Origin: Pseudobdellovibrionaceae bacterium
GTDB lineage: Bacteria; Bdellovibrionota; Bdellovibrionia; Bdellovibrionales; UBA1609
Length of the DNA: 64,000 nucleotides
Assembly (NCBI GenBank): GCA_023954155.1
Contig: JAMLIO010000009.1
Span: 1 to 64,000, forward strand
Direction: 5' to 3'
Part shown: one piece after another, positions 55,620 to 56,698 of the stretch
How the letters are laid out: each line of letters opens with the position of its first letter
How positions within the stretch are numbered: the stretch's first letter is position 1
Notes under the pieces: model-generated
Told to the model about the DNA's origin: nothing
Databases searched by the model: none
Seen by the model: the letters and a program-made list of their open reading frames with translations, nothing else
Program-made: the position numbers and the translations under genes

Positions 55620-55800
55620 CCCTTCCGCCATTTTATATAGGGTTTTCTTATTTATTCCCTTTCTATATAGAGATAGACCTCCAGCAAGCGGGACGCGTTT
55701 TGCTCGAAGAGCAAATGCTGGCAGAGCCCATGGATGGGCGTGTCTGTTTCTATATAGAAAGGGAATAAATAAGAAAACCCTATATAAAATGGCGGAAGGG
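55620..55800. repeat. Palindromic element, copy 1 (52-bp perfect arms)
   Basis: Left arm 55620-55671 and right arm 55749-55800 are perfectly complementary over 52 bp. The stem continues inward to 55678/55742 with two G-T pairs. The enclosed core folds further: CCAGCA (55681-55686) with TGCTGG (55716-55721), TTTGCTC / GAGCAAA (55699-55715) with a GAA loop, and GCCCAT / ATGGGC (55726-55739) with a GG loop. The whole would form a long stem ending in a branched head. It starts eight bases after the pcrA stop codon. No open frame is inside. Confidence 0.95.
55665..55755 (+). repeat. 91-bp conserved core, copy 1
   Basis: This core matches 56557-56647 in the same orientation with four substitutions in 91 positions. 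Two of these change a G-T pair in copy 1 (55672/55748 and 55674/55746) to a Watson-Crick pair in copy 2, so pairing is kept. It contains three inner helices described under the full element. It is the only part of the element whose sequence is shared closely between copies. Confidence 0.95.
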
Positions 55801-55914: not shown

Positions 55915-56400
55915 ATGAAAACTCTAGGTATAAGCAAGACAGCATCTTTATTTTTAAAGCTTGTATGTGTCTTATCATTCGTATCTTTAACTGCCTGTGA
56001 TGATGGTGGAGGCGGACTTAGCGCAAGCCAACATCCTCATTTGCCACCTGCGGGTACTATTGAGGCGTGCAGATACCAACAGCAAAATCAGTTTTTTGTA
56101 GGTATTCCAGGAAATCCTCATTGCCCTTACCAAGGACAGGCTATCAATGGCCAAGTTGAGGCTTTTGCTCAGATCAATTTTAATGCAGGTTTTGAAATCG
56201 ACTTTGGACTTCAGTACAACGACGCTTGTCCCCCAGGACAAATGCCTGTTTACGAACACATCCAAGGTAATCTGATTCATACTCGTTGTGACAATATTGG
56301 TGGCTCTTATGTGGATTACGTGTTTTTCCAACATCATAATAGCAGCAACTGTGCTGGTGCTTTTGCTGGAGATAAACGCTGTATCCCTAATCCGCTCTAA
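55915..56400 (+). CDS. Small Cys-rich lipoprotein between two palindromic elements
   Basis: 161 residues from the ATG at 55915, which has GGAGG eight bases upstream; a GTG five codons earlier is less likely. The signal peptide ends in LTAC, a lipobox, followed by DDGGGG, a flexible acidic/Gly linker that may direct sorting. The mature part has six further cysteines (in EACRYQ, PHCPYQ, DACPPG, TRCDNI, NCAGAF and RCIPNP), enough for three disulphides, and many aromatic residues. No family is recognised. It is the only gene between the two palindromic elements and has its own terminator, so it forms a single-gene unit. Surface exposure is plausible but not shown. Confidence 0.75.
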   Translation: MKTLGISKTASLFLKLVCVLSFVSLTACDDGGGGLSASQHPHLPPAGTIEACRYQQQNQFFVGIPGNPHCPYQGQAINGQVEAFAQINFNAGFEIDFGLQYNDACPPGQMPVYEHIQGNLIHTRCDNIGGSYVDYVFFQHHNSSNCAGAFAGDKRCIPNPL

Positions 56401-56481: not shown

Positions 56482-56698
56482 AAGTCCAGCATGGGGATTT
56501 TCCCTAGAGTTTTTCTTATTATTCACCTGGGGGGGGGTGGAGGGGGGTGAGCGGGCATATAGAAACAGACCTCCAGCAAGCGGGACGCGTTTTGCTCGAA
56601 GAGCAAATGCTGGCAGAGCCCATGGATGGGCGCGTCTGCTTCTATATGGATAGGTGAATAATAAGAAAAACTCTAGGGAAAATCCCCATGCTGGACTT
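56482..56698. repeat. Palindromic element, copy 2 (47-bp perfect arms)
   Basis: Left arm 56482-56528 and right arm 56652-56698 are perfectly complementary over 47 bp. The left side then carries a 28-base G-rich insertion (56529-56556) that has no partner on the right. An inner stem of 14 positions (56557-56570 with 56634-56647, one mismatch) closes the 91-bp core (56557-56647), which has the same three inner helices as copy 1. The arm sequence differs from copy 1 but about three quarters of positions align (for example ATTTT...TAG.G.TTTT.CTTATT.ATTC). It starts three bases after the lipoprotein terminator and ends 60 bases before the oligopeptidase start. Confidence 0.95.
56557..56647 (+). 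repeat. 91-bp conserved core, copy 2
   Basis: Direct repeat of 55665-55755, 892 bases downstream in the same orientation, 87 of 91 positions identical. The inner hairpins are all unchanged; the four differences are in the closing stem and the adjacent strand. Confidence 0.95.

Follow-up and report, generated by a model that had tools for sequence, protein, structure and literature searches.

MITEs and ERIC/RPE-type repeats are short, repeated, non-coding and palindromic sequences of intergenic DNA whose ends or arms are shared between copies. The REPIN is a dispersed, non-autonomous intergenic hairpin with conserved REP sequences at its ends and a variable middle, and compensatory changes have been reported in its stem (PMC3116915). 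The element described here is likewise a dispersed extragenic hairpin (the 20 copies in the source genome adjoin genes), and the REPIN is the nearest known kind. However, the arrangement is turned around: our element conserves its middle, and its outer arms are specific to each locus. It lacks two features of REPINs, namely shared inverted REP ends (the outer arms have no consensus) and a repeat-flanked RAYT gene. With its outer arms unshared, it also lacks the common ends or arms of MITEs and ERIC/RPE-type repeats, and the shared terminal inverted repeats and autonomous partner of a MITE were not found.

Two other systems resemble the element in part. TwoAYGGAY (RF01731), reported from the human gut, gamma-proteobacteria and Clostridiales, also has a long stem around hairpins, one of which carries an ATGGAT-type loop, but our element nests two further hairpins within its stem P2. 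The coding palindromes of Nematomorpha mitochondria have perfect inverted repeats with concerted arms, for which template switching was proposed; unlike the element, they have no conserved core, are not dispersed and lie in mitochondrial coding DNA (PMC6649704). No Rfam family reaches its cut-off on the element, and matches to microRNA families (to 65 bits) are artefacts that any long stem gives. The literature collection that we searched, which is incomplete, yielded no description of it. It seems to be a structured element that had not been described before in Bdellovibrio relatives, with up to ~106 copies per genome.

Why the two sides of a stem change in step has long been debated. In the standard model, two separate mutations occur, with a G.U intermediate between them. 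Template switching, which is a mutation mechanism rather than an element, has been proposed for RNA stems and quasipalindromes as a way to obtain mirrored changes, and stems that are longer and perfect, in a single step (PMC8794818, PMC8604942, PMC7202029). It homogenises the arms of inverted repeats (PMC8604942) and has been proposed to create and maintain RNA hairpins; the evidence that it maintains short stems in one step is called circumstantial by its authors (PMC8794818). We found no description of template switching for a repeated bacterial element in the literature searched. Because the family presented here supplies a large number of long and young stems built on a single core, and because its copies include both paralogues and orthologues from across a bacterial phylum, the two routes should be separable by event counts and direct assay. 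Its arms, which vary between copies and species and mostly change as mirror images, are a natural test bed for the evolution of paired stems.

The window, by which we mean the whole stretch of 64,000 nucleotides that was analysed, holds two copies of the element in the same orientation, 892 nt apart (Table 1). Both lie where the initial annotation had placed them, and no other well-paired inverted repeat of at least 22 nt with a spacing of up to 300 nt occurs in the window. Each consists of a 69-nt conserved core (GACCTCCAGCAAGCGGGACGCG...GAGCCCATGGATGGGCGTGTC) enclosed by long inverted arms. Copy 1 begins 8 nt past the stop codon of a UvrD/PcrA-like helicase gene. Between the two copies is a small ORF (55915-56400) that is lipoprotein-like and has no Pfam match. 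ORFs that run through the elements themselves were rejected as genes and taken to be chance open frames.

Table 1. Features of the two element copies in the 64-kb window.
Feature	Position	Strand	Remarks
Copy 1	55620-55800		
Copy 1 arms, 59 nt	55620-55678/55742-55800		complementarity 97%; spacer 63 nt
Copy 1 left arm	55620-55675	+	inverted repeat with 55745-55800; exact reverse complement over 55620-55671
Copy 1 conserved core	55676-55744	+	20 copies in source genome; covarying fold
Copy 1 core closing stem	within 55676-55744	+	GAC/GTC
Copy 1 core P2	55681-55685/55717-55721	+	
Copy 1 core P3	55688-55690/55694-55696	+	
Copy 1 core P4	55699-55705/55709-55715	+	
Copy 1 core P5	55726-55730/55735-55739	+	GGA in loop
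Copy 1 right arm	55745-55800	+	inverted repeat with left arm
Copy 2	56482-56698		
Copy 2 arms, 53 nt			complementarity 96%; spacer 123 nt
Copy 2 outer left arm	56482-56528	+	perfect over 47 bp with 56652-56698
Copy 2 G-rich 28-nt stretch of left arm	56529-56556	+	gap between arm pieces; right side without mirror image
Copy 2 inner left arm	56557-56567	+	inverted repeat; pairs with ~56637-56647, one A.C mismatch
Copy 2 conserved core	56568-56636	+	
Copy 2 right arm	56637-56698	+	inverted repeat; related to copy 1 right arm

The arms of the two copies had been proposed to be related, and this is borne out. Their right arms align with a score of 24, whereas the best of 2000 dinucleotide-preserving shuffles scored 17, and their left arms align with a score of 16 that 9 of 2000 such shuffles reached; the kinship therefore exceeds likeness in composition. 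The aligned block is exactly self-complementary in each copy, and hence its substitutions and single-base indels are mirrored on the two arms, as had been claimed. Two of the four differences in the core do convert G-T pairs to Watson-Crick pairs (T.G to C-G and G.T to A-T). It had been overlooked that a third difference changes an A-T pair to an A.C mismatch; the fourth falls within a linker that is unpaired. The description of both stems as perfect needs correction, since copy 1 has two G.T wobbles adjoining the core and the left arm of copy 2 is broken by the one-sided G-rich stretch. This stretch (GGGGGGGGGTGGAGGGGGGTGAGCGGGC) may be a real insertion or a sequencing error.

The core adopts a fold in which a closing stem runs on into the arms, P2 encloses hairpins P3 and P4, and P5 forms a separate hairpin. 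Among 59 cores, both-sided changes occur at 15 of the 23 pairs, with 130 double-changed cells compared with 31 in shuffles. A more diverse set of 61 cores, whose alignment was fitted to the model and hence leans towards it, has compensatory change at 20 of the 23 pairs and 302 double-changed cells versus 63 in shuffles. The cells in both sets are sequence counts and not independent events. The core fold is real and is under pairing constraint. Departures from it also occur. Most copies in one genus, g37, carry a shorter core variant that has no P4, and two 115-nt cores (L222 in G102 and L228 in G116) have a much longer hairpin in place of P4.

The source genome (G000, 2.44 Mb), which belongs to a relative of predatory Bdellovibrio, has 20 copies, compared with ~106 in a related Bdellovibrionaceae MAG (G011). 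Because copy number differs so greatly between genomes, the element must spread between sites. Searches with covariance models of the core, whose thresholds differ by the rank searched, found it in 10 of 47 genomes of the family (E<=1e-3), 39 of 140 genomes of the order (E<=1e-4) and 36 of 368 genomes of the phylum (E<=1e-5). The distribution is patchy, and the 36 positives at phylum level represent five families within the order plus a single family from outside the order. Copies are dispersed, form hairpins and are usually intergenic, near gene ends. Most of those read have inverted arms of their own, the exceptions being copies in arrays and some others that have one arm lost or diverged. 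An array of five cores ~118 nt apart is seen near a contig end (L144, at G011:C42:493-1038, and L063), and several further contig ends in G011 are also near element copies. No split-core or longer version emerged among the matches to the element.

The arms of copies within one genome show how mirrored change is distributed. Over the inner 37 arm positions of the 20 source-genome copies, 92.7% of cells are paired and 269 cells are double-changed, a count that none of 500 shuffles reached. A consensus is common to the inner ~19 columns, and therefore the element has arms of its own; the outer columns have no consensus and are locus-specific. This supports the part of the initial annotation that gave the element its own arms. 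The element comprises a folded core of ~69 nt plus an inner arm of ~19-25 bp. Perfect arms of 98, 91, 78 and 60 bp were found, the longest in the source genome being 98 bp with no G.U pair. A coding-like frame in this 98-bp arm (G000:C2:300694) was set aside as a gene candidate, the arm sitting between two genes. In seven copies from G327, half of the 38 arm columns are variable (19/38), 12 of these 19 are mirrored in every copy, and one indel is mirrored as well; 253 of 259 arm pairs are Watson-Crick and 3 are G.T. When copies with homologous arms are compared in pairs, which are not independent of one another, double changes exceed the expectation for independent change ~6-fold in G000 and ~3-fold in the largest subfamily of G011. 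In that subfamily, one-sided cells number 254 versus 108 two-sided cells. Older copies often carry one-sided changes, and the maintenance of pairing is therefore imperfect.

Unlike the inner arms, the outer arms can consist of target sequence copied in inverted orientation. At G000:C4:92417, the arm is perfect over 78 bp, and at its end are the final eight codons plus the stop codon of an OppC gene. The encoded protein is a full OppC by Pfam, and its end aligns with those of OppC and DppC chains of solved structure. The arm at G027:C2 takes in the last 7 nt of a tRNA-Cys gene. An arm of 146 bp at G017:C86 enters a predicted gene and reaches the contig end, and it may be an assembly artefact. 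It is very unlikely that compensatory mutations, arising step by step, would reproduce the end of a conserved gene in inverted form, so that where arms hold gene ends, DNA must have been copied. The proposal that mirrored arms exclude inverted duplication of the target is not supported, since the outer arms are locus-specific and in some copies contain host sequence. The choice that had been posed between an element with its own arms and an inverted insertion site is too simple, and both processes occur.

Orthologous copies were compared in genus g37, which is probably Bdellovibrio and was covered by 24 species, many represented by one contig of 3-4 Mb. Here copies occupy the same genomic place in several species, with both flanks alignable. 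At the first such place, the arms of G047 and G076 are identical. Those of G071 and G073 depart from them in five substitutions and a 2-nt deletion, every one of which is mirrored; one-sided changes are absent. At the second place, one mirrored change separates the arms of G075 and G052. Arms common to the species G079, G081 and G083 are also found there and have diverged through many one-sided changes, and the differences between the old orthologues G079 and G083 are mostly one-sided and keep G.U pairs. The assertion of compensatory change beyond chance is supported, as the arms change together well above the chance level in paralogous copies and in orthologous copies from different species.

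Thus, mirrored changes distinguish the arms of paralogues as well as those of orthologues, and an arm can reach into host sequence, of which the opposite arm is then an exact inverted copy. We consider it roughly an even call that this is a dispersed non-coding hairpin element whose arms are kept alike by copying from arm to arm together with selection for pairing of the + strand. During a single-stranded DNA stage, the element would fold back on itself and a polymerase would copy one arm from the other by template switching, as in quasipalindrome correction. One such step would turn one-sided changes and indels into mirrored ones, and at times it might extend the palindrome beyond its previous limits and thereby draw the end of a flanking gene into the arm. 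The rarity of G.U where variation is greatest, the mirrored indels and the perfect arms of 60-98 bp fit copying in one step, for example by template switching. As an added layer, the core's + strand would be selected for pairing as RNA or as single-stranded DNA, with G.T tolerated. Mismatches on this strand favour G.T over A.C by 128:47 overall (73:29 in G011 and 55:18 elsewhere). Because equal numbers would be expected in the absence of strand-specific selection or strand-biased mutation, some selection for pairing of the + strand is likely, whether as RNA or single-stranded DNA.

Several observations count against copying. No copying event was directly observed, older copies frequently show one-sided changes, a search for a mismatch gradient running from the core to the arm end gave no clear trend, and the 28-nt stretch of copy 2 was not copied to its other arm. 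We nevertheless favour the view that copying and pairing selection act together. The initial annotation had left both covariation driven by selection and arm-to-arm conversion standing, and the present data separate them incompletely. More tentatively, the element might represent a class of mobile element that consists of the folded core and inner arms only, makes an inverted duplicate of the flanking host DNA and re-matches its arms by repeated hairpin template switching. If so, it would be a self-building element, with arms that are unique to each copy yet matched, made on arrival or later.

A possible but doubtful alternative to joint copying and selection is stepwise compensatory evolution, in which a functional RNA or single-stranded DNA is selected for its long stem and the second arm is matched later, mostly via G.U. 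Covariation in the core is consistent with this route, as are the excess of G.T over A.C mismatches in two independent sets and the one-sided, G.U-keeping differences between G079 and G083. Indeed, the G.T excess shows that pairing selection contributes, and selection could alone explain part of the mirroring. However, stepwise change sits poorly with pairing that is perfect to 98 bp without G.U, with the exact copy of a host gene end and with mirrored indels. Its expected intermediate is also rare where variation is greatest, G.U accounting for 3 of 259 arm pairs in G327 and 1.3% of core cells in the 59-core set.

A rather unlikely alternative is that the element is a CsrA-binding RNA akin to TwoAYGGAY, whose arms would present hairpins with GGA loops to CsrA. 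Judged from sequence, a CsrA-related role is possible: GGA is found in the P5 hairpin of 59 of the 61 diverse cores and in P3 of 36, there is a weak Rfam match to TwoAYGGAY (35.5 bits), and 42 of 47 family genomes have a CsrA gene. That match, however, falls below the gathering cut-off of 43, and because this DNA gives still higher scores with microRNA models that have long stems, stems alone can yield such scores. The CsrA gene, being nearly universal in the family and equally common where the element is absent, was discarded as a discriminator. In a survey of 72 copies with rough gene calling, the right-hand neighbour gene aims at the element in ~49 cases and away from it in ~22, with no bias on the left; read-through from the right would give the other strand.

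We regard as distinctly unlikely a one-off duplication of the target, whereby the core alone moves, the flank is duplicated once as an inverted copy at insertion and later likeness between arms is due to chance or descent. The host sequence and locus specificity of the outer arms agree with it. So does the second g37 place, where the cores of G091, G080, G082 and G075 are near-identical and yet lie within different, well-paired arms, through either turnover or repeated insertion at a favoured site. A single inverted duplication does not, however, account for the inner-arm consensus common to copies, nor for homologous arms within subfamilies that gained mirrored differences after the copies separated, as orthologues also did. 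In g37 species without the element, neither arm is present and the gap at the first place is ~108-133 nt shorter, which also speaks against this reading; the intergenic DNA there is too diverged to be decisive, so these sites cannot tell whether either arm is native.

It is similarly improbable that the element is REPIN-like and moved as single-stranded DNA by a RAYT (a Y1 transposase) whose gene lies at another genomic site. Of 47 family genomes, 30 have Y1 transposase genes, among them 9 of the 10 with element copies, REPINs are hairpin elements known for compensatory changes (PMC3116915), and the G.T excess would suit a single-stranded DNA substrate. However, the source genome, which is 99% complete and has 20 copies, contains no Y1 match (E<=1e-3), only 1 of 20 Y1 neighbourhoods examined contains a copy, and Y1 genes are also common where the element was not found. 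The searches of the source genome and of Y1 neighbourhoods thus do not support a RAYT partner. The search for a transposase partner, which covered Y1 only, found none, and a search for carriage by phages or plasmids gave no match. The family is rich in Y1 transposases whose length is RAYT-like (24 matches in G034 and 14 in G011); few of them are near the element, and they may serve other repeats.

That the inverted arms arose from misassembly of metagenomic contigs is exceedingly improbable: some copies do lie at contig ends, and the 146-bp G017:C86 arm runs to one, but most copies are mid-contig, and arms built alike occur in the single-contig genomes G047, G071, G072 and G103 and at orthologous sites shared by several genomes.

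Another class of palindrome was also encountered in g37. A 15-base motif of this class matched 15 viral contigs, probably by chance. At four loci (L284, L288, L290 and L291), this palindrome, with the inner sequence AGTTCC..CAG ... GCGAGGACTGTCCGA, stands where other species carry the element, and it has locus-specific arms of its own of at least 30 bp.
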